Below are positions 50,668-62,779 of a stretch of DNA of 64,000 bases, piece by piece. The stretch comes from Paracoccus lichenicola. GTDB taxonomy: Bacteria; Pseudomonadota; Alphaproteobacteria; Rhodobacterales; Rhodobacteraceae. The DNA lies in assembly GCF_009708075.1 (NCBI RefSeq), contig NZ_WMBT01000001.1:558001-622000 (forward strand). The letters are read 5' to 3'. Both the position numbers and the translations under genes were made by a program. Each line of letters begins with the position of its first letter. Within the stretch, counting starts at the first letter, position 1. The notes beneath the pieces were generated by a model. That model was given only the letters and a program-made list of their open reading frames with translations. It ran no database searches and was not told the origin of the DNA.

Positions 50668-50743
50668 CTTAGGGAGCCTCTGCAAGTGCTTTCAAGCTTA
50701 TTGCCACGATTTGGTGGACCTCGCAACGCCGCACATTCCCGTC

Positions 50744-50772
50744 TTGCAAGCGGCGGGCCGATCCTCTATTCC
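50744..50772 (+). promoter_or_regulatory. Probable original tRNA-Cys promoter, now upstream of attL
   Basis: TTGCAA (50744-50749) and TATTCC (50767-50772) are 17 bp apart, with the tRNA 5' end 18 bp further. After integration this promoter reads through only the 5' half of tRNA-Cys into the element. Confidence 0.45.
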
Positions 50773-50788
50773 ATGCCCACCTTGACGG

Positions 50789-50826
50789 CGGCGGGTTGGC
50801 GGAGAGGTTACGCAGCGGATTGCAAA
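50789..50826 (+). repeat. attL: 38-bp copy of the 5' half of tRNA-Cys
   Basis: Identical to 61545-61582. The identity runs from the base before the tRNA 5' end to the anticodon loop (TTGCAAA) and then stops (GCCCC here, TCCGT at the right end). Crossover therefore took place in or before the anticodon loop. Confidence 0.93.
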
Positions 50827-50869
50827 GCCCCGCTGGTTTCCCGCCAGATCAACCGCTTCCCCGAAAATC

Positions 50870-50910
50870 GTTATCAGGACATACCGCGAACGGGCGGTGA
50901 ACGTGATAAC
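50870..50910. repeat. Left-end TGATAAC motifs, candidate integrase arm sites
   Basis: TGATAAC occurs inverted at 50870-50876 (GTTATCA) and direct at 50904-50910, within 85 bp of attL. Two direct copies occur near attR. A role as arm-type Int or Xis sites is inferred from position only. Confidence 0.35.
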
Positions 50911-51042
50911 GGCCTTTCCAGCCCTGAAATAGACACAAACGAAAACCCCGGCGCGCTGACGGGCGCAACCGGGGCTGATCTGCATTCCTGGCTGGAATGG
51001 GTGGATCTTAACATTCAGCGTGAGTCGGCGGCAAGGGTCTTG

Positions 51043-51285
51043 ATGGAGGCCGTTCTGGCCTGCGACCCGCACGACCGCATCCCGCTGATGGAACGGTTCA
51101 TCGACGCGCTGCGCCCCGGCGATCCTCTGTCCCCCTTCATGGGCATCATGGCATCGGCCCGCGATTGGGCATCTTGGGCCAGCCGCGCCGAACTGAAAGC
51201 CTATGCCTTGGCCTGTTACGAGGCCATGAGCGGGCGCGACCAAGCGGCGTTCCTGGGGCATATCGACCGGAGGACTGCGGCATGA
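51043..51285 (+). CDS. Small hypothetical satellite protein, about 80 aa
   Basis: The ATG at 51043 has AAGGG five bases upstream and gives MEAVLACDPHDRIPLMERFIDAL. The frame is open further upstream with a possible GTG at 51001 and no in-frame stop as far as attL, so the N terminus is uncertain. The protein is helical and acidic/Ala-rich with no recognised domain. Its stop overlaps the next start (ATGA). Confidence 0.6.
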   Translation: MEAVLACDPHDRIPLMERFIDALRPGDPLSPFMGIMASARDWASWASRAELKAYALACYEAMSGRDQAAFLGHIDRRTAA

Positions 51286-51518
51286 ATACGCAATCCCTGC
51301 CCCCGGTCGATGAACTGCTCTGGTCCTGGCCGTCCGTCTGCAAGGCGGCAAAGGAGGAATGGGCCAAGGGCTTTGCCCTGTCCATCGCTAAGCAGTCCAA
51401 GCGGCGCAACTGGCGACCAAGCCCCAAGCAACACGCCCTAATGATGCGCATGGTGAACGAGGTCTATCGGCACCGTGGCGACTTTGACGGGCAGGACGAC
51501 TTTGAGGTGATCGAATGA
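51282..51518 (+). CDS. Small hypothetical satellite protein, 78 aa
   Basis: MNTQSLPPVDELLWSWPSVCKAAKEEWAKGF begins in an ATGA overlap with the preceding gene and ends in an ATGA overlap with the Spo11-like gene. A basic central part (KQSKRRNWRPSPKQHALMMRM) might bind nucleic acid. No family recognised; a small-terminase or replication-accessory role is only a guess. Confidence 0.65.
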   Translation: MNTQSLPPVDELLWSWPSVCKAAKEEWAKGFALSIAKQSKRRNWRPSPKQHALMMRMVNEVYRHRGDFDGQDDFEVIE

Positions 51519-52477
51519 GCGTTCATCACCTTTCTACAGCCAGCCGTAAAACTGAACCGGACGATATTACAGCCAGCCGTAAAACTGGCCGGGCGCGTGG
51601 CTACATCGAAAACTACCGCCCCCAAGCCAAGACGCTGGAACTTCTGGAACAGGTCAAAGACGTGCTGGACGAATATCGCCAGTATTGGCCGCTGACCTGT
51701 CGCCAGATCTTCTATCGGCTGGTCGGGGCGCATGGCTATGACAAGACGGAGGCGGCTTATGGTCGCCTTTGCCATCACCTTGCCAATGCGCGCCGGGGCC
51801 GGTTCATCCCCTTCGCAGCGATCCGTGACGATGGGGTGACGACCTATCGCCGCGATCACTTCGAGGATCGGGATGCTTTTCTGCGCCGCGTTCGTGAAAT
51901 GGGCAGGAACTACACCCGCGATAAGCTGGCCGGGCAAGACCTGCATATCGAGGTTTGGTGCGAAGCGGCGGGGATGCTGCCCCAGTTGGACGATGTGGCC
52001 GAACCCTATTCGGTGCGCGCCTATTCGTCCGGCGGCTTTGACAGCCTGACGGCCAAGAAGGATCTGGCAGCGCGTATCTGCCGGATCGGCAAGCCGACCG
52101 TGATCCTGCACCTGGGCGACTTCGACCCGAGCGGAGTTTCCATCTTCGACAGCGTGGCCGAGGACGTGGCCGCGTTTGTGGAAACCGACAGGCCATGGGG
52201 GACAATCCATGTCACCTTTGAGCGTGTCGCCCTGACTGCGGATCAGGTGCGCCAGTATGGGCTGCCGACTGCCCCACCAAAGGCGACAGACAGCCGGTCA
52301 AAGGGATGGGACGGCGGCACCTGCCAGCTGGAAGCCCTGCCGCCGAACGTCATTGCCGACATTCTGCGGGAAGCAATCGAACGGCACATAAGCATGGTGC
52401 AACTGGAAATCGACCGGATCGATGAAGAACGCGACCGGCGTGAAATCCAGACCCTGCTTCTGGCCCCGCCGAAATAG
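51515..52477 (+). CDS. Orphan Spo11/topoisomerase VI subunit A-like protein (Mini-A type)
   Basis: 320 residues. Residues 41-110 look like a winged-helix 5Y-CAP domain with TCRQIFYRLVG, where Tyr67 matches the DNA-cleaving tyrosine of the Spo11/TopoVI-A motif R-D-I-Y-Y. A Toprim domain follows: Glu150 in HIEVWCEAAGML and the metal motif DFDPSG (202-207). No topoisomerase VI B (GHKL ATPase) gene is present. Orphan A-like proteins (Mini-A) are known from mobile elements, with roles not settled. Start is supported by GAGGTGATCGA and an ATGA overlap. A replication or recombination role in the satellite is inferred. Confidence 0.75.
   Translation: MSVHHLSTASRKTEPDDITASRKTGRARGYIENYRPQAKTLELLEQVKDVLDEYRQYWPLTCRQIFYRLVGAHGYDKTEAAYGRLCHHLANARRGRFIPFAAIRDDGVTTYRRDHFEDRDAFLRRVREMGRNYTRDKLAGQDLHIEVWCEAAGMLPQLDDVAEPYSVRAYSSGGFDSLTAKKDLAARICRIGKPTVILHLGDFDPSGVSIFDSVAEDVAAFVETDRPWGTIHVTFERVALTADQVRQYGLPTAPPKATDSRSKGWDGGTCQLEALPPNVIADILREAIERHISMVQLEIDRIDEERDRREIQTLLLAPPK
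51535..51587 (+). repeat. 20-bp direct repeat inside the start of the Spo11-like gene
   Basis: TACAGCCAGCCGTAAAACTG occurs at 51535-51554 and 51568-51587, 33 bp apart, so the protein has TASRKT twice near its N terminus. It may be a tandem duplication or a binding site (origin or operator) embedded in the gene. Confidence 0.7.
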
Positions 52478-52973
52478 CGAACCCCTGCCCCCGCGTCACG
52501 GGCGCGGCGCGGGGGCATCCATCCATCGAAGCAGACCGGACCATGAGCCGGGCATATTCCACCAACCGCCCTAGCTTCTGACCGCCGAGCGAATTCAGCG
52601 GAAGGGGATGCCGCAACCCCGCACCAAATCGCGGCAATGACGATCCGGGGACTACCCCAACCCGGCGGGACACCGGCACATTCTAGGCCCCGCCAGAAAC
52701 GCGACACTTAACCCACCGGCTGGTGAACACGGGAATGACCTGTGGTGACAGACCGGGGACCGGACAGGGAGGCATCCCACCGGGGCAGGATCAAAGCCTG
52801 CGGGACAGCGGCTGGCCCCCGTCATCGGGCATCGCGTGGATACGGATCGAGGAAGCCGAATGTCTGTCTCCTGCATGTCGGGGGGACAGTAGCGGGGACC
52901 GGCTATTGCCTATCGCATAGTTGCGAACCATTCTCAACTAGACTACATTGGAACAAACCGAGGCCCCAAGCAA
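52478..52973. other. 496-bp non-coding stretch, candidate packaging/origin region
   Basis: I see no convincing gene. It opens with a perfect 10-bp hairpin TGCCCCCGCG/CGCGGGGGCA (52486-52517, 12-base loop), contains CGGGGACCGG twice (52754-52763 and 52893-52902), and ends with the head-operon promoter. Position just before the packaging genes makes it a candidate cos or pac site, without direct evidence. Confidence 0.4.
52903..52949 (+). promoter_or_regulatory. Head-operon promoter with upstream operator
   Basis: CTATTGCCTATCGCATAG (52903-52920) is an imperfect CTATTG-N6-CAATAG dyad like the one at 59728-59745. It abuts TTGCGA (52921-52926), which is followed after 17 bp by TACATT (52944-52949), 25 bp before the connector start. 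An activator bound directly upstream of a weak -35 is the expected layout for late-gene activation. Confidence 0.5.
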
Positions 52974-53489
52974 ATGATGTCCTACACCCGCACCCCGATC
53001 AGCCTTGCCGACCCGTTCGACCTGGACGCGGTGAAGCAACACGCGCGCGTTGACGGCGATCACGATGATGCAGCCATTGCGATGATGGCCCGTGCTGCTG
53101 CCCGCGAGATCGAGGCCCATGCGGAACTGGCCCTGCTGCATCAGTTGATCACGCTGACCGTGGATGCCACGGGGCAAGCCATCCCCCTGCCCTGCGGTCC
53201 TGCTGCATCTGATGCCGAGGTGCTGGTGGACGGGCTGGCCCTGGTGAACGGACTGACAGGCGGGCGCTATCCCGTGCTGCACCTGCCCGACTATACACGC
53301 GGGCCTGTGGTCGTGTCCTATGTCGCGGGCTTCGGCCCTGATGCAGGCAGCATCCCCGATGACCTGGCGCTTGCCATCGCTGACCAGACGGCGCGGTCCT
53401 ATGATCTGCGCGGGGCCGAGGATGGGCCGCAGGGACTATCGGTGGCAGCGTCTCGCATCGCAGCCCGCTATCGCAGGGTGGCGGTGTGA
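52974..53489 (+). CDS. Head-tail connector protein (gp6-like)
   Basis: 171 residues with the phage gp6/phiE125 gp8-like connector pattern: DLDAVKQHARVDGDHDDAAIAMMARAAAREIEAHAE at the N terminus, a beta-rich middle and DLALAIADQTARSYDLRG at the C terminus. Connectors close the filled head and present the tail attachment ring, so its presence suits particles that must accept a tail. It is the first gene of the head operon and ends in a GTGA overlap with terL. Confidence 0.8.
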   Translation: MMSYTRTPISLADPFDLDAVKQHARVDGDHDDAAIAMMARAAAREIEAHAELALLHQLITLTVDATGQAIPLPCGPAASDAEVLVDGLALVNGLTGGRYPVLHLPDYTRGPVVVSYVAGFGPDAGSIPDDLALAIADQTARSYDLRGAEDGPQGLSVAASRIAARYRRVAV

Positions 53490-55114
53490 CGGCGGCAGCG
53501 ACCAGGGCGAAGGGGCGCAAGGGGCAGGCCGCATCTGGTCCCAATGCCCCCAAAGTCGGCAAATCCAAGCACCGGGGGCTGACTAATCCTCGCGCGCGTT
53601 CTGACGATCCGGCGGCAAAAACCCTGGACTTCATCCGGTCCCTGCGGATCCCCGAGGGGCCGTTGCATGGGCAGAATTTCAGCCTGGCACCCTTTCAAGA
53701 GGACTTCATTCGGGGCGTTCTGGCACCCGAGACAATGACGGCGATGCTTTCCGTTGGCAGGGGACAAGGCAAGTCGATGCTGTCTGCGGCGCTGGCCCTG
53801 GCGCACCTCATGGGCGTGTCTGACGATCAGCCGAGGCGGCAAGTGATCATCGCGGCCCGCGTAAAGGAACAGGCGCGCATCGCTTGGGAATATGTGCAGG
53901 CCATCGTTCTGCAACTGCCCGAGGATGAACAGGCGCTGTTCACCTTCCGGCAGGCTCCACGTCTGGAAATCAGCTATGAAGGCAACGGCGGCGGCATGAT
54001 CCGGGCCGTGGCGGCAGATGCCAAGAACCTGCTTGGCCTAAGCCCGACGATGATTTGCGAGGATGAATTCGGCCATTGGCATCCTGACAAGGGGATGCAG
54101 CTTCATGCGGCCTTAGAGACTTCGGCGGGCAAGCGGCGGGCCAAGACCATCATCATATCGACTTCGGCAAGCGACGACACGCACCCGTTTTCGCAGATGC
54201 TGGACAACCCCCCGCCTCATTCCTTCATCATCGAATGCCGCGCGCCTTTGGGCCAGCCTGCCGACGACTTGGCAGGCATCAAGGCTGCAAACCCCGGCGC
54301 GGAACATGGCATCGGCCCGTCCCTGCAATGGCTGCAAGATCAGGCCCGCGTGGCGATCCAGCGGGGCGGACAGGCTCTCACGGGCTTCCGGCTCTACAGC
54401 CTCAATCAGCGCGTTTCGGACGTGGGCAAGGCGCAGCTGGTGACGGCTGACGAATGGCAGGCTTGCGAGGCAACAGAACTGCCCCCGCGTGAAGGCGAGT
54501 GCATTGTGGGCCTGGACCTTGGCGGCAGCCGCAGCATGTCCGCCGTGGCGCTGTATTGGCCGCTGACAGGCCGTCTTGAGGTGCAGGGCGCATTCCCCCA
54601 GAAACCCGGCCTCGCGGATCGTGGCGAAGCGGATGGCGTGAAGGACCGCTATGTGCAGATGCACGACCGGGGCGAATTGACCGTGACCGGCGAAAGCACC
54701 GTGCAGGTCGGGCCGTGGCTGCGGCAAGTCTGGGACGATCTGGTGCAGGACGCTGATGTGCGCGCCCTGATCTGCGACCGATACCGGCAGGCGGAATTGC
54801 TGGACGCCCTGACAGCGGCAGGCATCCGCGTTCCCGTGGTTTTCCGGGGGCAAGGCTTCCGCGACGGCGGGCAGGACGTTGAAGGCTTCCGCAAGGCTGT
54901 CTTTGACGGGGAAGTGCGCACGGCTCCGTCCCTGCTGCTGCGCTCTGCGGCGGCTGACGCGCTTGTCGTGGTCGATGATGCGATGAACGCCAAGCTGACC
55001 AAGGCGCGAAGCCTGGGCCGCATTGACGCTATCGCAGCCTCCATCCTGGCCGTTGCCGAGGGCCAGCGGCGCAAGGCCGCACCTCTGCGGAAAGCGAGGG
55101 TTGCATGGGCATGA
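53486..55114 (+). CDS. Terminase large subunit
   Basis: 542 residues; GTG start in a GTGA overlap. The packaging ATPase has Walker A GRGQGKS (91-97) and Walker B MICEDE (189-194) and the coupling region ISTSASDD; the C-terminal nuclease has VGLDLGGSRS (341-350, Asp344) and a late Asp in GRIDAIAASILAVAEG. It belongs to the HK97-like Terminase_1 type. No small terminase was recognised nearby. Confidence 0.9.
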   Translation: MTAAATRAKGRKGQAASGPNAPKVGKSKHRGLTNPRARSDDPAAKTLDFIRSLRIPEGPLHGQNFSLAPFQEDFIRGVLAPETMTAMLSVGRGQGKSMLSAALALAHLMGVSDDQPRRQVIIAARVKEQARIAWEYVQAIVLQLPEDEQALFTFRQAPRLEISYEGNGGGMIRAVAADAKNLLGLSPTMICEDEFGHWHPDKGMQLHAALETSAGKRRAKTIIISTSASDDTHPFSQMLDNPPPHSFIIECRAPLGQPADDLAGIKAANPGAEHGIGPSLQWLQDQARVAIQRGGQALTGFRLYSLNQRVSDVGKAQLVTADEWQACEATELPPREGECIVGLDLGGSRSMSAVALYWPLTGRLEVQGAFPQKPGLADRGEADGVKDRYVQMHDRGELTVTGESTVQVGPWLRQVWDDLVQDADVRALICDRYRQAELLDALTAAGIRVPVVFRGQGFRDGGQDVEGFRKAVFDGEVRTAPSLLLRSAAADALVVVDDAMNAKLTKARSLGRIDAIAASILAVAEGQRRKAAPLRKARVAWA

Positions 55115-55440
55115 TGCGCGATTGGCACCGGCATTCAAAGCGCGTGACCTCGACCAAACGCTGGCAGGTTCTGCGCCAGATCGTGCTGGAACGGGACAAC
55201 TGGGCTTGCGTGGATTGCGGCACCCGGCGCGGGCGGCTGGAAATCGACCATATCCAGTCCGTGCGGACCCGGCCCGACCTGGCCTTTGACCCGGCGAATT
55301 GTGCCGCCCGCTGTCCTTCCTGTCACACGAAAAAAACCCGGATCGAGTGCGGGCATCCCGCCCCGATCATCACCCCCGAGCGGCAAGCCTGGGGGCAACT
55401 CGTTGCCGAACTGGCGACAAACCCCAACCCGGCAACATGA
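55105..55440 (+). CDS. HNH endonuclease
   Basis: 111 residues (109 if the ATG at 55111, in an ATGA overlap with terL, is used). The HNH core has CVDCGTRRGRLEIDHIQSVRT, ANCAARCPSCHTKKT: two CxxC zinc pairs and the D-H catalytic dipeptide. In HK97-like phages an HNH protein next to terL is needed for cos cleavage and packaging; the same role is inferred here. Confidence 0.9.
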   Translation: MGMMRDWHRHSKRVTSTKRWQVLRQIVLERDNWACVDCGTRRGRLEIDHIQSVRTRPDLAFDPANCAARCPSCHTKKTRIECGHPAPIITPERQAWGQLVAELATNPNPAT

Positions 55441-55448
55441 GGTATCAA

Positions 55449-56684
55449 ATGCTGGACTCTGTGAAGATCGCCCGTCGCCAGTCGGAAATCCGGCAGGCAT
55501 TGGCGGGCCTGGTCGGCAAGGAAAGCCCGACCGAGGACGAAACCCGTTCCATGGAAAGCATGGATCAGGAATACCGGACCAACGAAACACGGTTCCGGGC
55601 TGCCCTGGTGGCCGAGGATCAGGAACGGCGCGAAGCCGGGGCCGATCTGGAAACGCGCTCCGACCGTGAATTCGCGGAACTGATCGGGCGCTTTGAACTG
55701 CGGCAGGTGGCCCTGTCCCTGGACGAAGGCCGGGCGCTTTCGGGCGCAACTGCCGAGGTGGTGCAGGAACTGCGCGCCAAGGGCGGCTATCAGGGCATCC
55801 CGGTCCCGCTGGCGGCTCTGGAAACCCGTGCGGGCGAAACCGTCGCGGCGGGCGTTCCGAACCCCAAGACCATCCGTCCCATCATCGACCGGATCTTCCC
55901 GAACAGCGTGGCCGAACGCCTGGGCGTCCAGCGCATCAACATCACGGCGGGCGAACTGGCCTTTCCCGTGGCGACCGCTGGCGCTGTCTTTGGCTGGCAG
56001 ACGACCGAACTTGGCAACGTGGGGGCGCAGCAAGCCTTTGCCACGACCGAACGCAGCCTGGCCCCCGATCACACCGGCGGCGCGCAGATGGTCATCAGCC
56101 GCAAGGCGCTGAAACAGGCGGGCGAAGGGTTGGAACAGGCGATCCGGCGCGACATGAACGCGGTGATCGGCGCGGAACTCGACCGCGTGGTGATCAGCGG
56201 CAGCGGCGCGGCGGGCCAGCCCCTGGGCATCATTCCGGGCGCTGCCACCTACGGCATCACCGCGACCGCCGTTGGCGCGACCGCGACCTGGGCGGCGTTC
56301 CGGGCGCAGCTGGTGGCCTTCATGGACGGCAACCAGATCACCGCGCCCGACCAGGTGAAGCTGGCCTTCGATCCGGCGATCTGGGCGGAACTGGACGCGG
56401 CGCTGATCACCGGCACGGCTGTTTCGGAATGGGACCGGCTGACCAAGCAGGTTGGCACCCCGGCAATCAGCAATGTCATCCCCGACAGGACCGCGATCCT
56501 GACCGCCACCGTGCAGGGCGTGGCCCCCGGCTATCTGGGCATCTGGGGCGGCGTTGACCTGATCCGGGATCCCTATACCAAGGCGGCATCGGGCCAGCTG
56601 GTGCTGACCGCGCTTGTGACGGCTGACTTCACCGTCCCGCGCGGCGCGCAAACCCGCATCCTGACCGGCATCGGGGCGCCCTGA
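55449..56684 (+). CDS. Major capsid protein, HK97 fold
   Basis: 411 residues. The N-terminal 100 residues are helical (KIARRQSEIRQALAGL to FELRQV) and match the scaffolding delta domain that the prohead protease removes. The shell domain follows, with the family pattern NPKTIRPIIDRIFPNSVAERLGV, SRKALKQAGEGLEQAIRRDMNAVIGAELDRVVISGSGAAGQPLGI and IWGGVDLIRDPYT. GAGG lies six bases before the ATG at 55449; an ATG at 55437 overlaps the HNH stop. The stop overlaps the protease start (TGATG). Confidence 0.92.
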   Translation: MLDSVKIARRQSEIRQALAGLVGKESPTEDETRSMESMDQEYRTNETRFRAALVAEDQERREAGADLETRSDREFAELIGRFELRQVALSLDEGRALSGATAEVVQELRAKGGYQGIPVPLAALETRAGETVAAGVPNPKTIRPIIDRIFPNSVAERLGVQRINITAGELAFPVATAGAVFGWQTTELGNVGAQQAFATTERSLAPDHTGGAQMVISRKALKQAGEGLEQAIRRDMNAVIGAELDRVVISGSGAAGQPLGIIPGAATYGITATAVGATATWAAFRAQLVAFMDGNQITAPDQVKLAFDPAIWAELDAALITGTAVSEWDRLTKQVGTPAISNVIPDRTAILTATVQGVAPGYLGIWGGVDLIRDPYTKAASGQLVLTALVTADFTVPRGAQTRILTGIGAP

Positions 56685-57238
56685 TGCTGTGGGGGGCGTC
56701 TCTCGGCGCACTGGAACTGCGCAGCGATGGCGGGGCAACCCGCCTGCGGGCGACGTTCCCCTATGGGGCGGAAACCGAACTGGCACCGGGGCGGCGTGAA
56801 GTCATCGCCCCGCGCGCCTTCGCTGACCGGATCGAGGCAGGCGGCGAAATCCACCTGCTGTCCGGTCACGACTACAACCGCCCGCTGGCATCCACCACGG
56901 CGGGCAACCTGTCCCTGCGCGATAGCGACGACGCGCTGATGATCGAGGCCGAGATTGACGGCGGCACGACCTGGGCGCGCGACTTCCTGGCAGCCCATGC
57001 AAGCGGGCTGATCCGCGGCCTGTCCCCTGGCTTCCGCGTCACCCCGGACGGTGAACGGATCGAGCGGCGCGGGGCTGGCGTCCTGCGCACCATCACCAAA
57101 GCGGCGCTGTTTGAAATATCGGCTGTCACCCGGCCCGCCTATCCTTCGGCGCAGATCGAGGCGCGGGCATGGGAAACCCATTGGGACCGGCTGCCCTATC
57201 GCGGCCCGGTCTATCACCTGAACCGTTGGAGGGTCTGA
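56684..57238 (+). CDS. Prohead protease (HK97 family, S78)
   Basis: 184 residues. His62 in LLSGHDYNRPLAS, Ser114 in RGLSPGFRV and Glu144 in ALFEISAVTRPAYPSA give the expected catalytic set. It cleaves the capsid delta domain during maturation. It lies after the capsid gene instead of before it, and joins both neighbours by TGATG overlaps. Confidence 0.92.
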   Translation: MLWGASLGALELRSDGGATRLRATFPYGAETELAPGRREVIAPRAFADRIEAGGEIHLLSGHDYNRPLASTTAGNLSLRDSDDALMIEAEIDGGTTWARDFLAAHASGLIRGLSPGFRVTPDGERIERRGAGVLRTITKAALFEISAVTRPAYPSAQIEARAWETHWDRLPYRGPVYHLNRWRV

Positions 57239-58311
57239 TGGGCCTGCTGAACCTGTTCCGGCGGTCTACGCGCGTAGACGTTCCCGAAACCCGTGCCATC
57301 CAGCCGGGCTATACCGCCAGCCTCATGGCAGCGCGCGAAGCGTGGATTTCCGGCGCATCCGGCCTGGCCGAGGTAACGGCGGCTGTGCAGACTTCCGTTT
57401 CTCTCTGGGAAAGCGGCCTGTCGCTGGCCGATGTGACCGGCACCGACCTGCTGGACCGGCGCAGCATGGCTATCACGGCCCGCGCTCTGGCCCTACGGGG
57501 CGAATGCCTGTTCCTGATCCGTGATAGGCTGATCCCGGCGACCGATTGGGACATCAGCACCCGCTACGGCCAACCCCGCGCCTATCGCGTGGGACTGCCT
57601 GAAATCGGCGGCGGGCGGAATGAAACCGTCCTGGCAGGCGAGGTGCTGCACTTCCGCATTGGCTGCGATGCTGTCACCCCCTGGGCAGGCTCTGCACCTC
57701 TGGCCCGTGCCAAGCTGTCGGCGCAGCTGCTGGAAGCCATCGAAACCGCGTTGCGCGACGTTTACCAGGACTCGCCTATTGGCAGCCTGATCGTGCCCGT
57801 GCCTGAAGGATCAGCCGAGGATATGGAGGCGCTGCGGCGGGGCTTCCGTGGCAGGCGCGGGCAGGCTCTGGTGATCGAGGGCGTGGCGCAGGCGACGGCG
57901 GCGGGCATGAACCCGAACATCGGCAAGTCACCGGATCAGCTTTCCCCGGATTTGTCCCGCACCTTGGCCGACCGGCTGCTGACTGATGCGAAAGGCGCAA
58001 TCTTTGGCACGTTCGGCGTCCTGCCCGGCCTGCACAACCCCGCCACGACCGGACCGATGGTCCGCGAGGCGCAGCGGCACCTTGCGCAGCTGGTGCTGCA
58101 ACCCGTCGCCAATCTCATGGCCGAGGAAGCCAGCGAGAAATTCGGGCTGGCCGTAAAAATCGACGTTGTGCGACCGATGCAAGCCTTTGACCACGGCGGC
58201 AAGGCGCGGGCGCTTGGCACGATGATGCAGGCGATGGCGCAGGCCAAGGAGGCCGGGCTTGACGATGCGACCGTGAAGGACGCGCTGACCTTCATCGACT
58301 GGGCGGATTGA
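57238..58311 (+). CDS. Phage portal protein
   Basis: 357 residues of the HK97-like portal family, starting MGLLNLFRR. Signature regions include RGECLFLIRDRLIPATDWDIS, GEVLHFRIGCDAVTPWAGSAPL, AEDMEALRRGFRGRRGQALVIEGV and EAQRHLAQLVLQPVANLMAEE. The portal forms the DNA entry vertex. It is the last head gene here, an unusual place. It is somewhat short for the family, and no truncation is evident. Confidence 0.88.
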   Translation: MGLLNLFRRSTRVDVPETRAIQPGYTASLMAAREAWISGASGLAEVTAAVQTSVSLWESGLSLADVTGTDLLDRRSMAITARALALRGECLFLIRDRLIPATDWDISTRYGQPRAYRVGLPEIGGGRNETVLAGEVLHFRIGCDAVTPWAGSAPLARAKLSAQLLEAIETALRDVYQDSPIGSLIVPVPEGSAEDMEALRRGFRGRRGQALVIEGVAQATAAGMNPNIGKSPDQLSPDLSRTLADRLLTDAKGAIFGTFGVLPGLHNPATTGPMVREAQRHLAQLVLQPVANLMAEEASEKFGLAVKIDVVRPMQAFDHGGKARALGTMMQAMAQAKEAGLDDATVKDALTFIDWAD

Positions 58312-58583
58312 CGAGATAGGGCCGGGATGCGCCCTGCGGGCTTTCGAGCGTCTTCACCGCAAAGCATCTGGGATCAGACGGCGAGTGCCCGGCGTCCGAC
58401 ATGCCGAAAACCCCGTCACGGCGCGGCCCCTTCTTCCATGGGGGCGCGGCGCAGGCTGCCACGATGCAGATCGGGGGCCGCCAACGCGGCACGAGCAAGT
58501 GCCATGGCCCGCGTCTGGGCAAGGGGCCGGGGGCGTCGGGATGGCGCACCGGCCCCGCTTCCTCAGAATATCCCGGTGCCTGC
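58312..58583. other. Intergenic stretch between the portal and the RHH regulator
   Basis: 272 bp. Several open frames cross it on both strands (for example 58327-58614), but none has a convincing start, known family or boundary; it presumably holds the head-operon terminator and the 3' end of the convergent regulator gene. Confidence 0.4.
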
Positions 58584-58928
58584 TTACTTGTCGTCTGGAG
58601 ATTTTCCGAAGTGAAGGCGCATATGACCTGGCCGCTTTTGTTCAAAACGCGGTTCAAGTTCAGGAAGCATGTCCGCAATCAGCCGGTTTACTTCGTCCAG
58701 CCTAGCAAGCCTCTCCGCGCGTGTTGGCGCTGCTTGAAGATACTGGAACATGTCATGGACAGTCATTTGAACGGGTGTGGGTGCGGGAAATTTATCTTCT
58801 AGCGCCGCGACGATTTCAGCGTTCATGCTGCGGTTGTTTGCATCTGCGGCGGCCTTGATCCGGTCGCGCAGATCATCAGGCATCCGAATGTTGACCTGGG
58901 CCTGCTCACGGGCTGGCGGCTTAGACAT
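58584..58928 (-). CDS. Arc-like ribbon-helix-helix repressor
   Basis: 114 residues. The N-terminal RHH domain is QVNIRMPDDLRDRIKAAADANNRSMNAEIVAALEDKF, where the strand VNIRM contacts DNA. The C-terminal 60 residues are charged and helical, possibly for oligomerisation. It is the only minus-strand gene of the element and is divergent from a second RHH gene across a repeat-rich operator, like a phage immunity switch. Confidence 0.85.
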   Translation of the reverse strand: MSKPPAREQAQVNIRMPDDLRDRIKAAADANNRSMNAEIVAALEDKFPAPTPVQMTVHDMFQYLQAAPTRAERLARLDEVNRLIADMLPELEPRFEQKRPGHMRLHFGKSPDDK

Positions 58929-58950
58929 GTAGTCCCCACGCTATCACATG

Positions 58951-59019
58951 CCAGCACAATGCTACTTTTTAGCATTGACGCAATACCAGCACTATGCTGT
59001 TATAGCATTGTGCTGGTAT
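58951..59019. promoter_or_regulatory. Operator cluster of the divergent RHH genes
   Basis: The half-site AGCATTGTGCTGG (or its complement) recurs. One dyad is AATGCTA-CTTTT-TAGCATT (58958-58976). A second is a 37-bp inverted repeat (58983-59019) with arms ATACCAGCACTATGCT / AGCATTGTGCTGGTAT, one mismatch, loop GTTAT. A further CCAGCACAATGCT starts at 58951. The sites fill the gap between the two regulator genes. Confidence 0.7.
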
Positions 59020-59030
59020 CGAGGACCGCC

Positions 59031-59183
59031 ATGTCAGAAATGAAGCAACTGCCGATCCGCTTCCCCGCCGATGTGAAAGCGTGGCTGTCGGAACAAGCCC
59101 GGCTCAATGGTTCGAGCCAGAACAGCGAAGTGATCCGCGCCGTCCGCGAACGGATGGAGCGTCAAGAGGCCGCGACGGCCTAA
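59031..59183 (+). CDS. Small RHH regulator, 50 aa
   Basis: MSEMKQLPIRFPADVKAWLSEQARLNGSSQNSEVIRAVRERM is an almost minimal Arc/MetJ-type ribbon-helix-helix protein. GAGG lies six bases before the ATG. It is divergent to the other RHH gene and begins a plus-strand series that leads to the integrase. It may antagonise the larger RHH protein at the shared operator. Confidence 0.8.
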   Translation: MSEMKQLPIRFPADVKAWLSEQARLNGSSQNSEVIRAVRERMERQEAATA

Positions 59184-59198
59184 CCCTTGGAGGAAATG

Positions 59199-59459
59199 AT
59201 GACGATCATCGAACGCGTTCGCGCGAACAATACCCCTTACCCTGCTGGCATGATGGACCGCATGGCGCTGTTTGCAGAGTGGACCGGCACAACCCCGCCC
59301 GAAACGATCCTGGAGGATCAGGGCGACGGCTGGACGTTCAGCACCGAGTTCCTGACGTTCTGCGCCCTGAACGGCATGTCGATTGATTGGGTTTGGCTTG
59401 GCGACGAGAAGTCGCTGGTCCTGGAAGCGCACAATGCGGCGTTGCGGGGGCGGGCATGA
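59199..59459 (+). CDS. Hypothetical phage-type protein, 86 aa
   Basis: Starts MTIIERVRANNTPYPAGM with GGAGG five bases upstream (another ATG lies at 59196). The stretch FCALNGMSIDWVWLGDEKSLV resembles short proteins common in proteobacterial prophages, of unknown function. Its stop overlaps the next start (ATGA). Confidence 0.65.
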   Translation: MTIIERVRANNTPYPAGMMDRMALFAEWTGTTPPETILEDQGDGWTFSTEFLTFCALNGMSIDWVWLGDEKSLVLEAHNAALRGRA

Positions 59460-59653
59460 CGCGGGAGGAGAAAGAAAAGCACTTCGAGGAGATCATGGAG
59501 TTGCTGGACGAAACCGAGAAGTCAGTCCTGCTCTATACCATCGTCACAGTAACGAACACCAAGTCGAAAGGGTGGCGAACGCGGCGAATCAACGATTTTA
59601 CCCGATGGCTTGATGAGCGGCGCAATACCCCGATTGCCGAGAAAGTCGCATGA
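59456..59653 (+). CDS. Small hypothetical protein, 65 aa
   Basis: MTREEKEKHFEEIMELLDETEKSVLLYTIVTV begins in an ATGA overlap. It is highly charged and helical; no family recognised. A 7-bp hairpin CGCCCGC/GCGGGCG (13-base loop) lies after its stop (about 59660-59690). Confidence 0.6.
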   Translation: MTREEKEKHFEEIMELLDETEKSVLLYTIVTVTNTKSKGWRTRRINDFTRWLDERRNTPIAEKVA

Positions 59654-59704
59654 TGTGCATCGCCCGCGATCCCGCCGGTTGCGGGCGAAACACATGGAAA
59701 ACCT

Positions 59705-59745
59705 ATTGCCACGGCAATCAATCCGATCTATTGTTAAGGCAATAG
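59705..59745 (+). promoter_or_regulatory. Tandem operators before the putative activator gene
   Basis: Two dyads, ATTGCC-AC-GGCAAT (59705-59718) and CTATTG-TTAAGG-CAATAG (59728-59745), are centred 25 bp apart, and the second ends 12 bp before the chosen start codon. A related dyad is found before the head operon (52903-52920), pointing to one regulator for both. Confidence 0.6.
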
Positions 59746-59757
59746 ATGGAGATAGCT

Positions 59758-60222
59758 ATGAATATCGAACCCACCATGTCCAGCACTTACGCCTGCGAGG
59801 TCGCTTTCGTGAACAAGCAGCGTTTCAACGAAGCCGTGGCCCGAGGGGATTATCCCTGCGCCCCAGTAGTCGATGGCCGCACTCGCATTTTCACCGCGCG
59901 CGATGTGTTCGGCCTGTGGCTGTATGGCCAACTGACCGATGAAGGGCTTCCCCCGGCCAAGGCGGGCGATCTGGCCTGCCAACTGGTCGAGGTGATGCGC
60001 CATAACCCCGATCTGCAAGAAGTGGCCCTGGTCCGTGACGCCTTTCGCCGCCGCTGGGTGGTAGCGCCTGACCAAGTAGGTTCACTGGTCAGCTTCACCT
60101 TGGGCGGGACGCAACCGATTGGCATCGAGACGCTGGATCTGCGTCCGGTCCATAGCAACATCGCCCACCAGTTTAACAAGCTGGCGGCGCGCTATGTCCA
60201 CCCCGACGACGCCGAGGACTGA
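59758..60222 (+). CDS. Putative DNA-binding regulator of the element, 154 aa
   Basis: The N-terminal half (YACEVAFVNKQRFNEAVARGDYPCAPVVDGRTRIFTARDVFGLWLYG) looks like a MerR/AlpA-type winged helix-turn-helix, followed by a helical segment (AKAGDLACQLVEVMRHNPD) and a beta-rich C terminus. GGAG lies upstream of the Met at 59758 (another at 59746). Operators in front of this gene and of the head operon suggest that it activates the head genes and regulates itself. The assignment is from pattern and context only. Confidence 0.55.
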   Translation: MNIEPTMSSTYACEVAFVNKQRFNEAVARGDYPCAPVVDGRTRIFTARDVFGLWLYGQLTDEGLPPAKAGDLACQLVEVMRHNPDLQEVALVRDAFRRRWVVAPDQVGSLVSFTLGGTQPIGIETLDLRPVHSNIAHQFNKLAARYVHPDDAED

Positions 60223-60227
60223 TCGAC

Positions 60228-60434
60228 ATGATCAAGGCATTGCCCCTCTGGGCCAACGAAAAGACTTCTGCATCGCTTCTGGATTTGAAGCCCTGCGAGT
60301 TTTGCGCGCTGGTTGCGGATGGGCATTTGCCGCGCGGTCGTGAGATCGCCCCTGGCGTGATCCGCTGGAATACAGACGAACTGCGCGCCATCGGGCGGGG
60401 CGAAGCTGTCGATGGAGGAATAGACTGGTCATGA
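60228..60434 (+). CDS. Excisionase/AlpA-like HTH protein
   Basis: 68 residues: SLLDLKPCEFCALVADGHLPRGREIAPGVIRWNTDELRAIGRGE has the short winged helix-turn-helix pattern of excisionases and AlpA-like activators placed directly before integrase genes. It overlaps the integrase start by ATGA, as expected for a Xis-Int pair. Confidence 0.75.
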   Translation: MIKALPLWANEKTSASLLDLKPCEFCALVADGHLPRGREIAPGVIRWNTDELRAIGRGEAVDGGIDWS

Positions 60435-61450
60435 GAAAAACAGGCCGCAAGCCCTACGTGTGCGAGGTCAAGCAGGGCTTCCTCTATTTCCGCAAGGGCG
60501 GCAAATACCTGCACCGCTTCACGGCACCGGAAGGCACCGAAGAATTCGACCGCCAGTATTGGGAAGTGATGACCGGCAAGAAAGCCGAGGCCAAGCGTTC
60601 CTGGGCTGCGGCGATCCAAATCCTGCGCGAGTCGGATCGTTGGGCTGGGAAGTCCGTCCGTTACCGGCAAGACCTTGAACCCGTGCTGACCTACCTGATC
60701 GACAAGATTGGCAAGCGCGACGTGTCCCGGCTCACGCAGGCCGATATTTACGAGGCGATGGACAAGAACAAGCATCGCGTCCGCTTTGCCAACTACCTGC
60801 CTGTCGCCATCAGCATGATCGCCAAAGAGGTGATTCGGCGGCGCTGGTTGAACGAGAACCCGGCGAAGGGCATCGAGCGCCTAGCCGTTCCGAAGAACCG
60901 GCAGCAACCGCATATCCCGTGGCCCGATGCAGCCGTCAACAAGTGGCGGGCCGAGGCTGGACCGCTTGAACGGCTGATCTTCGAGATCGGCGTGGGCAGC
61001 GTCCAGCGACCTAGCGATTGGGTAGGCTTCACCTGGGGCGACTATGATCCGGCAGGTGACGGAACGCTGCGCCTGCGCCAGAACAAGACCGACGTGGCCC
61101 TGGTCCTGCCCTGCACCATTGCATTGAAGGCCGCTCTGGACACGGCGAAATCAGCCCTGCCCTTCGCGCCCCTGCCCGGTCGCTACATCATCACCAAGCA
61201 GGACGGCAGCCGCATGGATTATCGGCGCATGGCCGAGGTGATGCTGGCCGAGCGGCGGCGGCTCAACCTGGAAACCTACGATCTTCACGCGCTGCGCTAT
61301 CGCGGCGTGATGGAACTGGCCTGGGCTGGCTGCGACGATGACGAAATCATGTCCTACAGCGGTCACAGCACCAAGACCATGGTGCGCAAGTATGCCGGGG
61401 AAGCCCGGCAGATCATGCGGGCGAAGCAAGCCCGTGCCAAGCGGTCCTGA
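60431..61450 (+). CDS. int: Tyrosine-type integrase
   Basis: 339 residues. The catalytic set is complete: Arg193 (SVQRPSDW), Lys219 (RQNKTDV), His286-x-x-Arg289 (HALRYRG), His312 (SGHSTKT) and Tyr321 (VRKYAGE). The core-binding domain spans about residues 75-150. It lies 95 bp from attR and directs integration into tRNA-Cys. Confidence 0.95.
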   Translation: MRKTGRKPYVCEVKQGFLYFRKGGKYLHRFTAPEGTEEFDRQYWEVMTGKKAEAKRSWAAAIQILRESDRWAGKSVRYRQDLEPVLTYLIDKIGKRDVSRLTQADIYEAMDKNKHRVRFANYLPVAISMIAKEVIRRRWLNENPAKGIERLAVPKNRQQPHIPWPDAAVNKWRAEAGPLERLIFEIGVGSVQRPSDWVGFTWGDYDPAGDGTLRLRQNKTDVALVLPCTIALKAALDTAKSALPFAPLPGRYIITKQDGSRMDYRRMAEVMLAERRRLNLETYDLHALRYRGVMELAWAGCDDDEIMSYSGHSTKTMVRKYAGEARQIMRAKQARAKRS

Positions 61451-61481
61451 CGCAGAACAGAACAGGGCCAGAACGTGAAAG

Positions 61482-61500
61482 TGATAACAGGAGTGATAAC
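61482..61500 (+). repeat. Right-end TGATAAC motifs, candidate integrase arm sites
   Basis: TGATAAC at 61482-61488 and 61494-61500, 12 bp apart, about 45 bp inside attR; matching motifs lie near attL. Confidence 0.35.
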
Positions 61501-61504
61501 CCCC

Positions 61505-61533
61505 TTGACCCCCTCAACCGAAAACCTTAGCAA
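61505..61533 (+). promoter_or_regulatory. Putative element-borne promoter for tRNA-Cys
   Basis: TTGACC (61505-61510) and TAGCAA (61528-61533), 17 bp apart, end 12 bp before the tRNA 5' end. The sequence lies inside the element, so the intact tRNA gene would be driven by element DNA. The -10 match is weak. Confidence 0.4.
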
Positions 61534-61544
61534 ACGCGAGGCTC

Positions 61545-61582
61545 CGGCGGGTTGGCGGAGAGGTTACGCAGCGGATTGCAAA
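61545..61582 (+). repeat. attR: 38-bp repeat forming the 5' half of tRNA-Cys
   Basis: Identical to 50789-50826. Here it continues into the true 3' half of the tRNA. Confidence 0.93.
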
Positions 61583-61619
61583 TCCGTGAAGACCGGTTCG
61601 ATTCCGGTACCCGCCTCCA
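61546..61619 (+). tRNA. tRNA-Cys (GCA), reconstituted at the element's right end
   Basis: 74 nt with encoded CCA. Acceptor stem GGCGGGT/ACCCGCC, discriminator T, anticodon loop TTGCAAA (anticodon GCA), T-loop GTTCGATTC. The 5' 37 nt come from the element side of the crossover and the 3' half is chromosomal. Confidence 0.96.
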
Positions 61620-61645
61620 CCTTTCCCCGAAATGTGCCGTTCCGC

Positions 61646-62779
61646 TCAGCCCTTGGCCTGGCGCCGCAGGGTGATCGACATCTGCCAGGGCGCGCCATGG
61701 CGCAGCCACAGCGCGGAAATCCACCACAGCGTCAGCATCGCCCAGACATCGACGGCCATGCGGCGAGCGATGCCCTGGCCCGGGGGGTTCATCTGGAAGG
61801 CGTCGCCTAGGACCGACAGCAGCACGCAGGCCAGAAAGGAAAACAGCCCGCCCCGGCCGATCTGCTGCAAGGCCACGCCCAGGCGGCTTGCGGCCATGCG
61901 CTCCATGATGCGGGCCAGGGGCACGGCGACCAGCCAGCTTGCGCCCATGATCGCCATGTAGCGGGTGCCGTCCAGGTCCCATTTCCCGACCTCTCCGCCA
62001 TAGATCAGGCGCAGGGCGTCGCGGACGGGCAGCGCGGGTTCGCCGAACTTGGCGGCGACGACGATGGCGGTGCCGAACAGGAACATGCCCGCCGACAGGA
62101 TCGTCAGAAGCCGCCGGTGCTGTGTCAGGACCGGCATGATCCGTTCGCGGTAAAGGCCCATGGCGATGCCGGAAAAGAACAGCATCTGCCAGCCGAAGGG
62201 GTTGAACAGCAACCCGCCGATGCGGTGGTTCGGCACGAAGGCGTTCAGCACGGGGGCAAAGCACCACACCGCGAACGACCCCGCCGCGAAGCTGAGCGGA
62301 TGGCGCATCAGCACCGGCACCAGGATGGGGACCGAGGCCAGCAGGATCACGTAGACCGCCAGCACGTCCAGCAGGTTCGGTTGCAGCCACATCGTCGCCA
62401 GCACGCCGAAAAAGCCGATCGGGTTTTCCAGCACCCAGATGGCGTATTGGTGCCAGATCGCCGTGTGGTCCATGTCCAGCGCCAGAAGGCCTGCGGACAC
62501 CAGCGCCATCAGCATTCCGCCAAAGACCAGGGCGCGCCAGACCTCGAAGGCGCGGCGGGTAAAGCGCCACTGGACGGCGCGCAGGCCCTGCTTGCGTTCG
62601 ACCGCCAGCCAGACCATGCCGACCAGGAAGCCCGACAGCAGCACGAACAGTTCCGCCGCGTCGAAGATGGCGAAGTTGGCCAGCGTGAACCAGCGCAGTT
62701 CCGAAATCGGCATGTGGTCCAGCATGATGCAGACCAGCGCGTAGCCGCGCAGCATGTCCAGCGCGATGAGACGCTTCAT
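61646..62779 (-). CDS. opgC: OpgC-like acyltransferase/membrane protein
   Basis: 377 residues, about ten membrane helices, matching the OpgC family: MKRLIALDMLRGYALVCIMLDHM, FDAAELFVLLSGFLVG and RRAFEVWRALVFGG. OpgC proteins decorate osmoregulated periplasmic glucans with succinyl groups. The start at 62779 overlaps the opgH stop by ATGA, confirming an opgH-opgC operon; a Met at 62797 is the alternative. Confidence 0.9.
   Translation of the reverse strand: MKRLIALDMLRGYALVCIMLDHMPISELRWFTLANFAIFDAAELFVLLSGFLVGMVWLAVERKQGLRAVQWRFTRRAFEVWRALVFGGMLMALVSAGLLALDMDHTAIWHQYAIWVLENPIGFFGVLATMWLQPNLLDVLAVYVILLASVPILVPVLMRHPLSFAAGSFAVWCFAPVLNAFVPNHRIGGLLFNPFGWQMLFFSGIAMGLYRERIMPVLTQHRRLLTILSAGMFLFGTAIVVAAKFGEPALPVRDALRLIYGGEVGKWDLDGTRYMAIMGASWLVAVPLARIMERMAASRLGVALQQIGRGGLFSFLACVLLSVLGDAFQMNPPGQGIARRMAVDVWAMLTLWWISALWLRHGAPWQMSITLRRQAKG

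Follow-up and report, generated by a model that had tools for sequence, protein, structure and literature searches.

Organisation of the element

Within the window, that is, the whole 64,000-nucleotide stretch of Paracoccus lichenicola DNA analysed, perfect 38-bp direct repeats (50789-50826 and 61545-61582) bound an element of 10,756 bp, measured start to start. Its features are the following:

50789..50826, no strand: attL, the 38-bp repeat, tRNA-Cys 5′ half left on the chromosome side
50908..51285, plus: g1, small helical protein (start codon uncertain; five-helix model)
51283..51518, plus: g2, 77-aa protein (ATGA overlap with g1)
51515..52477, plus: Spo11/topoisomerase VI A-like protein, accessory (PHROG 6247, Foldseek)
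52478..52973, no strand: conserved non-coding block 5′ of the head operon, candidate packaging/regulatory site
52974..53489, plus: gp6-like head-tail connector (PF05135, PHROG 442; profile match to Rcc01688, PDB 6tba)
53486..55114, plus: terminase large subunit, TerL (PF03354 and PF20441, PHROG 9)
55105..55440, plus: HNH endonuclease (PF01844)
55437..56684, plus: major capsid protein, HK97 family (PF05065; profile match to PDB 8gta)
56684..57238, plus: prohead serine protease S78 (PF04586, E 7.2e-24)
57238..58311, plus: portal protein (frame open from 57169; PF04860 sub-threshold; alignment of 15)
58584..58928, minus: Arc-like ribbon-helix-helix regulator, divergent (PF03869, E 4.8e-13)
58948..59019, no strand: inverted repeats between both Arc-like genes, predicted operator
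59031..59183, plus: second Arc-like regulator (ORF open from 58959; PF03869, E 4.1e-6)
59187..59459, plus: small protein (ORF; relatives in L031, L041 and L053)
59456..59653, plus: small protein (ORF)
59746..60222, plus: 158-aa protein, regulator guessed by eye (relatives in 7 of 34 mapped loci)
60228..60434, plus: excisionase/AlpA-like HTH protein (HTH_17/AlpA matches of alignment members)
60431..61450, plus: tyrosine integrase (PF00589)
61545..61582, no strand: attR, the 38-bp repeat within tRNA-Cys
61546..61619, plus: tRNA-Cys(GCA), intact, 5′ half from the element

The insertion is real, because the joined flanks align without a gap over 1,045 bases, at 86% identity, to each of L068 and L069, which come from two genomes of the same genus and have an intact tRNA-Cys at the unoccupied site. 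Both copies of the perfect att repeats described in the earlier note were located, the right one inside the intact tRNA-Cys, and an Rfam search of 50700-61700 returned nothing except tRNA above the gathering score. The integrase, reported as intact, does carry no stop codons and matches PF00589 at E 5.7e-11. The excisionase-like gene proposed beside it stands in part: 5 of the 26 members of its alignment, itself included, match HTH_17 and one matches Phage_AlpA, but the 68-aa window protein (scanned as 67 aa) has no Pfam match of its own. The same genome carries a second satellite in tRNA-Tyr. A separate insertion at the same tRNA-Cys site (L283) showed no match to the family genes in the 3.2 kb compared.

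The full set of overlapping head and packaging genes that had been read from the sequence proved to be intact and backed by Pfam and PHROGs, all of it within the 10,756 bp. Connector, TerL, HNH, capsid and protease have Pfam matches above cut-off; the portal match to PF04860 (E 4.6e-6) falls below it, and an alignment of the protein to 14 relatives shows 53-89% identity. Comparison with P. sediminis gave dN/dS values of 0.09-0.20 for TerL, capsid, protease, portal, integrase and the AlpA-like gene and of 0.41 for HNH, and comparison of the head genes tested with L028 and L041 gave 0.15-0.37. Judged by these ratios, purifying selection is acting on the head genes. L026, the closest relative, has a head-closure gene (Phage_HCP) 3′ of its portal; this gene is missing from the window element, where the portal end adjoins sequence found beyond Phage_HCP in L026, so that the window copy may need the closure protein of a helper, or be impaired.

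The lack of tail, lysis and primase genes was borne out, in that none of the 17 window ORFs matched such a family in Pfam or PHROGs. Pri-Rep was not found in the element by these scans, nor was a convincing TerS among the 17 ORFs, where a highly diverged TerS is possible. The only TerS label, from phrog_4581 (E 3.4e-7), was set aside since it is the HNH domain of the HNH protein that matches. The protein g1 was rejected as TerS because the fold of its predicted five-helix model was unmatched in the PDB, and both g1 and g2 were rejected as a universal TerS because of their patchy distribution (15/34 and 9/34 mapped loci, respectively; relatives of g1 also occur in 39 of 148 viral loci).

The Spo11-like assignment made from the sequence holds: the protein matches PHROG 6247 ('DNA topoisomerase') at E 4.4e-41, its alignment keeps Tyr, Glu and DxD, the catalytic residues of such enzymes, invariant in 11 rows (two of which are one locus, duplicated), and Foldseek matches its model best to topoisomerase VI A subunits (E 2.5e-4; TM-scores low, ~0.3). 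The gene is accessory, present in 5 of 34 loci and absent from L026, and so does not define the new branch suggested in the earlier note. The conserved residues and the fold match are shared with Mini-A/topoisomerase VI A, as described in the part of PMC7614492 used here, and the accessory status within the window family is a difference from it. Spo11-like genes were found too in viral contigs of 19-33 kb. The non-coding block at 52478..52973, with 87% identity to L026 and further matches in L041, L036 and L028, is a candidate packaging or regulatory site; as a cos site it was kept as a candidate only, the core word occurring in 9 of 274 loci, and these nine, some of them duplicates, amount to about four distinct places. 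The 158-aa protein (59746..60222) matched no Pfam or PHROG family.

A family of elements of similar size and order

Relatives with a TerL at least 50% identical occupy 27 loci in 21 of 91 same-genus genomes, a count that excludes two partial TerL matches above 60% identity (G039:C68 and G037:C4), and five of the 21 genomes carry multiple satellites. The order TerL-HNH-capsid-protease-portal is kept in the window element and in 29 of 30 relatives at the same TerL threshold, the degraded L029 being the exception. In four of the 29, one head gene shows either a broken frame or a short match (capsid in L032, HNH in L036, portal in L047 and L048), which may be real or an assembly error. The earlier note had proposed a search for the same genes in the same order between tRNA-Cys repeats. 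In the loci mapped here, tRNA att repeats, in 11 tRNA species, bound 19 of 34 (17 of the 31 formed by the window element and 30 relatives, plus two remote loci), and were not found for the other 15. The 19 att-bounded elements measure 9,711-11,364 bp, with a mean of 10,573 and an SD of 513. A replication-protein cluster is present in 15 of the 34 mapped loci; its two members that were checked are a Prim-Pol plus AAA_25 and an AAA_25.

Across the family to which the host belongs, the portal profile finds the same satellite anatomy in 50 of 394 genomes, and it is also carried by one genome in another family of the same class. IMG/VR holds 433 capsid relatives. Two metagenomic members (9.97 and 10.11 kb) are closed by end repeats, and L116 and L118 are circular relatives without a recognised integrase; the sole indication of a plasmid in this circular pair is a weak, below-cut-off RepL-like match. 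The TerL tree gives the 30 core TerLs a long branch of their own (support 0.988), distinct from the remaining TerLs of the genus, and places L056-L058, which are remote loci resembling islands, with the prophages. L034, misaligned in alignment A6, was left out of alignment A7.

No recognised tail module

Related prophages in which the same genes run on into tail genes, a finding that would point to a deletion product, were looked for and none was found. No tail genes were recognised inside the 19 att-bounded elements. Their residual ORFs of at least 80 aa number 80, and the 64 scanned, after exclusion of 16 short minus-strand ones, matched eight Pfam families, none of them tail; among the 25 of 35 PHROG families listed there was likewise none, except connectors of the head-closure and neck/tail-completion types, each in one member of the family. 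In the 21 satellite-bearing genomes, the tape-measure family PF10145 occurs at eight places, all on another contig or more than 480 kb from the satellite. With matches in only 6 of these genomes, this family has low sensitivity as a marker; little weight attaches to its absence, and more to the evidence from size.

The best 80 matches per head-gene scan of IMG/VR correspond to 138 distinct loci; in the 50 of them chosen for a search for tails and integrase, neither of the two tail families searched, PF10145 and PF13550, was present (0/50 each), and an integrase was found in 42. Among viral loci with a portal, 61 of 130 have the integrase 525-3,294 bp after it, with intervening ORFs all of 383 aa or less, a space too short for a tail module. 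The long viral record L137 was discarded as a tailed relative since the 7 kb after its portal are host genes by eye (Lon, sensor kinase). The TerL is less than 60% identical in all 104 INPHARED matches (28.5% in the top-ranked, 23-31% among the 60 listed), and the capsid matched five records, at 27% identity over 57% of its length.

A probable satellite, predicted to build its own heads

The 10.76-kb tRNA-Cys element is likely a phage satellite, predicted to make its own small heads and to take tails and lysis functions from a helper. The original proposal of a head-building, tail-stealing satellite is supported by recurrence at similar size and by gene order, packaging and the theft of tails being predictions. 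In the proposed cycle, a helper signal would lift the repression exerted by the divergent Arc-like regulators, and excision at the 38-bp sites would fall to the integrase together with the AlpA-like HTH protein. Host or helper enzymes would amplify it, since no primase was found in the window copy. TerL with HNH would then cut and package the DNA into heads made of the element's own capsid, protease and portal, on which the gp6-like connector would dock a helper tail. The narrow range of 9.7-11.4 kb is as a fixed small head would impose. The phage HK97 has a genome of 39.7 kb and a T=7 head. Scaled by volume from T=7 to T=3, this length becomes 11.1 kb, and a T=3 head is therefore predicted; the narrow genome size allows the relation of genome length to head size to be tested directly. 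A candidate helper in the host genome is a prophage that encodes TerS, TerL and a tape measure of 864 aa, the only tape-measure prophage above the Pfam cut-off there.

An inert remnant of an ordinary HK97-type prophage, with the genes for tail, lysis and replication deleted, is improbable. Its gene types would be the ordinary phage ones that are seen, and the window copy has no recognised TerS, primase or L026-type head-closure gene; L029 is degraded and four relatives have one broken head gene. A remnant is, however, hard to reconcile with one layout repeated at near-constant size in the 19 att-bounded loci, with low dN/dS (0.09-0.20) in six of seven genes free of stop codons, and with the failure of the TerL search of INPHARED, and of the capsid search, to find a full-length phage with a close module.

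Slightly less probable still is a satellite of the same anatomy that takes its tails from the gene transfer agent (GTA) of the host instead of a prophage. GTAs have no integrase or att sites and package random host DNA. The window element, with integrase, att sites and packaging genes of its own, is not a GTA by these criteria, and the genome has a separate cluster resembling a GTA. The idea of a GTA relationship was prompted by the connector: the only PDB match of its profile at E<=0.01 is the Rhodobacter capsulatus GTA adaptor Rcc01688 (6tba), its closest solved relative by sequence, which the single sequence also matches. The profile matches in 58 of 61 same-genus genomes, some of these matches being satellites or prophages, and in the window genome at C22, within an apparent GTA cluster, judged by its ORF layout. 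The relationship was weakened by a tree of 33 adaptors, in which the satellites form their own clade and average 25.3% identity to GTA-type and 24.8% to prophage-type adaptors of the genus, types assigned by match strength and size with the context checked for few. With ~25% identity to both types, the connector shows no special tie to GTAs and names no helper, and nothing else in the element was recognised as GTA-like.

An autonomous minimal virus, with a short tail built from small proteins that escaped recognition, is very improbable: several small proteins do have no assigned function and two integrase-less relatives of ~10 kb are closed contigs, but g1, the commonest of three such proteins counted, occurs in fewer than half of the mapped loci while the head genes occur in nearly all, the residual-ORF matches listed include no tail family other than connectors, and no lysis gene was recognised.

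Relation to known satellites

The phage satellite favoured here was likened in the earlier note to the capsid-forming islands (cf-PICIs), reportedly described by Alqurainy et al. in 2023. On the best reading it is cf-PICI-like in its working and is set beside the cf-PICIs by description; it is not filed as one because TerS and Pri-Rep were not found. The definition used comes from the parts consulted of PMC10690885, PMC10448857 and PMC10803314. Likenesses to it are an integrated island with an integrase and att sites, its own capsid, protease, portal and connector, TerL with HNH, the lack of a recognised tail, a candidate AlpA-like HTH protein and, in some relatives, Prim-Pol/helicase genes. 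Differences, in a comparison by description and not by sequence, are the alphaproteobacterial host group, which is absent from the host list in the section of PMC10803314 used; the size (~10.6 kb against a cf-PICI average of 14 kb); and the lack of a detected Pri-Rep and of the TerS expected, according to the excerpt of PMC10690885, in packaging machines of this type. The TerL and capsid are 23-31% and 27% identical, respectively, to the phages listed. As for a complete temperate phage, its tail and lysis genes were not recognised in the window element.

The cf-PISP satellite-plasmids of Vibrio, as portrayed in the available part of PMC13230959, likewise encode a capsid and no tail, and recall the circular L116 and L118; in contrast, the window element lies in the chromosome and has an integrase and att sites. 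Mulch and Flayer of Streptomyces also carry encapsidation genes, Mulch being thought to use helper tails, and exist in an integrase-less form; they differ in their hosts, virulent helpers, scaffold gene and TerS (PMC10690885, same excerpt).

Taken further, and at rather less than even confidence, the elements may form a separate large Rhodobacteraceae lineage with a cf-PICI-independent origin that packages ~10.6 kb in T=3-size heads. The same tentative joint reading has TerL and HNH possibly acting without a classical TerS, replication modules being swappable (Prim-Pol/helicase or Spo11-like), and integrated and integrase-free circular forms coexisting, with prophage tails, or even those of GTAs, conceivably used for docking. 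Since the same bacteria carry GTA-like clusters too, tail sharing among satellites, prophages and GTAs that have related connectors is testable within one genus.

Head-building, tail-stealing satellites are placed chiefly in Enterobacteriaceae and their neighbours and in Gram-positive bacteria by the portion of PMC10803314 used. The open-access literature, searched by title and start of abstract, yielded no account of satellites in Paracoccus or Rhodobacterales, subscription papers lying outside the search. A 2019 table of the Paracoccus virome gives P. sediminis DSM 26170 a single 48.5-kb prophage and does not list the satellite on the same contig (L026), an example of how prophage catalogues can overlook such satellites.

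Gene content of the element and its insertion site

The island of the window had been read as a satellite bounded by perfect 38-bp att repeats, with an integrase and a full set of head and packaging genes and without tail, lysis or primase genes. The repeats are indeed perfect direct copies, every gene of the set is present with neighbours overlapping or nearly so, and none of the 17 window ORFs scanned matched a family of tail, lysis or primase proteins. The sole TerS-labelled match among these ORFs runs through the HNH domain. The features are arranged as follows:

50789–50826, left copy of the 38-bp repeat
Left part: g1 and g2 (no function assigned), then a Spo11/topoisomerase VI A-like gene
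52478–52973, conserved non-coding stretch of 0.5 kb with a GC-rich inverted repeat at 52486–52517; candidate terminator plus packaging site
Head operon: connector, TerL, HNH, major capsid, protease, portal
Right part: two divergent Arc-like regulators separated by inverted repeats, three proteins without assigned function, an AlpA-like HTH protein, a tyrosine integrase
61545–61582, right copy of the repeat
61546–61619, intact tRNA-Cys(GCA) gene

Insertions into tRNA genes usually replace the 3′ half of the gene. Here the right copy of the repeat corresponds to the 5′ half of tRNA-Cys, and it is therefore this half, not the 3′ half, that the element replaces. An integrase 60% identical to that of the window is found in a relative (L036) lying in tRNA-Cys in the opposite sense with the 3′ half repeated, so that related integrases act in opposite senses on this tRNA, the window element rebuilding its 5′ half and L036 its 3′ half. 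When the flanks of the window element were joined, 1,045 bases matched two loci (L068 and L069) without break at 86% identity, and tRNA-Cys directly adjoins the methyltransferase-like gene of the left flank in 14 of the 30 loci examined around that gene. In a third locus (L070) the alignment ends at the junction, which indicates that another insertion occupies the same site; no family gene was recognised in the roughly 3 kb of this insertion before the contig end (L283, G012:C68).

Recurrence of the family

Counting the window, TerL with at least 50% identity was found at full length in 27 loci, which belong to 21 of the 91 genomes of the genus; the other 57 genomes gave no match at all. Four named loci belong to Paracoccus sediminis, P. 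gahaiensis and Falsirhodobacter, and the flanks of the window element are syntenic with P. sediminis (L026), which points to Paracoccus as the genus of the host. The head-closure gene of L026 is absent from the window copy. The gene order TerL-HNH-capsid-protease-portal, which the earlier note proposed to look for in other genomes, is kept in the window and in 29 of 30 relatives, the exception being a degraded one (L029); in four of the 29 (L032, L036, L047, L048), one head gene has a broken frame or matches over a short length only. The connector was recognised in 21 of these 31 loci. A second type without it comprises nine loci, and in six of these an additional gene was called ahead of the portal.

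Of the 34 loci mapped, 19 have att repeats at a tRNA, including the remote L056 and L058, and the elements so delimited are 9,711–11,364 bp long (mean 10,573, SD 513). The tRNAs occupied are Cys, Tyr, Lys, Arg-acg, Arg-tct, Phe, Asn, Glu, Thr, Ala and His. The window genome carries two elements, in tRNA-Cys and tRNA-Tyr, and another genome (G045) carries three with TerL identity of at least 50% plus a remote one. Four IMG/VR records (L129, L142, L176, L194) each contain two same-strand integrase genes 10.0–11.1 kb apart, which suggests tandem satellites at one site.

Beyond the genus, the portal profile matched 50 of 394 genomes of the family, probably Rhodobacteraceae (393 genera), some matches being fragments, and the capsid profile matched 7 of 385 genomes across the class. 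The only strong capsid match outside the own genome lies in another family (G759), where TerL, HNH, capsid and portal follow in the same order together with an integrase; the protease was not detected at this locus, and a 17-bp repeat at tRNA-Met would delimit 10,232 bp. Scans of IMG/VR yielded 433 capsid and 300 portal relatives, the best 80 of each being taken further. One of the viral contigs in IMG/VR (L104, 10.4 kb) is the window element itself, whose sequence was thus already catalogued.

The head genes are under purifying selection. Against P. sediminis, dN/dS was 0.13 for TerL, 0.20 for capsid, 0.10 for protease, 0.19 for portal, 0.09 for integrase, 0.14 for the AlpA-like gene and 0.41 for HNH, with no internal stops in the genes compared. 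Comparison with two further relatives (L028 and L041) gave 0.15–0.37 for those head genes that were included and 0.19 for the Spo11-like gene.

Search for tail genes

Among 130 portal-bearing viral loci, 61 have an integrase 525–3,294 bp downstream of the portal, and no ORF longer than 383 aa lies in these gaps. Neither PF10145 (tape measure) nor PF13550 was found in 50 chosen IMG/VR records, 42 of which contain an integrase. In the 21 satellite-bearing genomes, PF10145 occurs at eight places, all on other contigs or more than 480 kb from a satellite; only 6 of the 21 have it, which shows that this marker is insensitive in the genus. For the 64 of 80 residual ORFs scanned from the 19 att-bounded elements, Pfam gave eight families and no tail family, and among 25 of 35 PHROGs families listed the only tail-side ones were head-closure and neck/tail-completion connectors.

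Origin of the modules

The 30 core TerLs split from other TerLs of the genus (L059–L065 and L255, with a tape-measure prophage confirmed for L062 only) with branch support of 0.988; the remote island-like loci L056–L058 group with the latter. The nearest phages of TerL among the matches listed are HK97-like, at identities below 32%, and include HK106 and HK446, which mobilise the cf-PICI EcCIEDL933 according to an excerpt of PMC11389934. The only phage matches of the capsid are RcCronus-type Rhodobacter phages (27%). In PDB, the match of the connector profile is the RcGTA adaptor, but in an adaptor tree the satellites are equally distant from GTA-type and prophage-type adaptors, as labelled in this analysis. 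One relative (L030) is a mosaic whose capsid is 85% identical to that of the window, against 49–56% for TerL, protease and portal; head genes thus seem to be swapped among satellites. Among the 34 loci mapped, 5 carry the Spo11-like gene, which L026 lacks, and 15 carry a replication-protein cluster (two members checked are Prim-Pol + AAA_25, and AAA_25). The Spo11-like gene is best seen as one among several interchangeable early modules.

Comparison with cf-PICIs and probable free forms

It is established that the window element is inserted, which genes it carries, that it recurs within a narrow range of sizes, that it is under selection and that it has no recognisable tail. It would be induced by a helper, excise, build its own head and steal a tail. 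The head of HK97 is T=7, and volume scaling from its record length (39,732 bp) gives 11.1 kb at T=3 and 17.2 kb at T=4; the predicted head is accordingly T=3. A prophage of the same host (L062, G000:C11, ~122–127 kb), in which TerS and TerL are directly followed by an 864-aa tape measure, an unusual gene order, is a candidate helper.

cf-PICIs average 14 kb. Their definition in a section of PMC10690885 lists capsid, protease, portal, connectors, TerL, TerS and HNH, a section of PMC10448857 includes alpA and Pri-Rep in the signature genes, and the hosts named in part of PMC10803314 are mainly Enterobacteriaceae, relatives and Gram-positive groups. The window element shares most of these features but not TerS and Pri-Rep; the earlier likening to cf-PICIs is thus retained for its predicted working, and it is not classed as one. 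Among the rows considered of PMC6536676 (Paracoccus virome), the smallest prophage is 32.8 kb.

Five relatives with maps of 9.5–10.2 kb are possible episomal satellites. Two metagenomic ones (L116 and L118) are closed by end repeats, at 10,110 and 9,970 bp, and contain a weak RepL-like gene, and three (L122, L123, L212) have a circularly permuted gene order. The family profile found no integrase in any of the five, nor did Pfam find a tyrosine integrase in L116, L118 and L122. Given these closed, integrase-less and permuted relatives, the family probably includes free forms that are circular or concatemeric.
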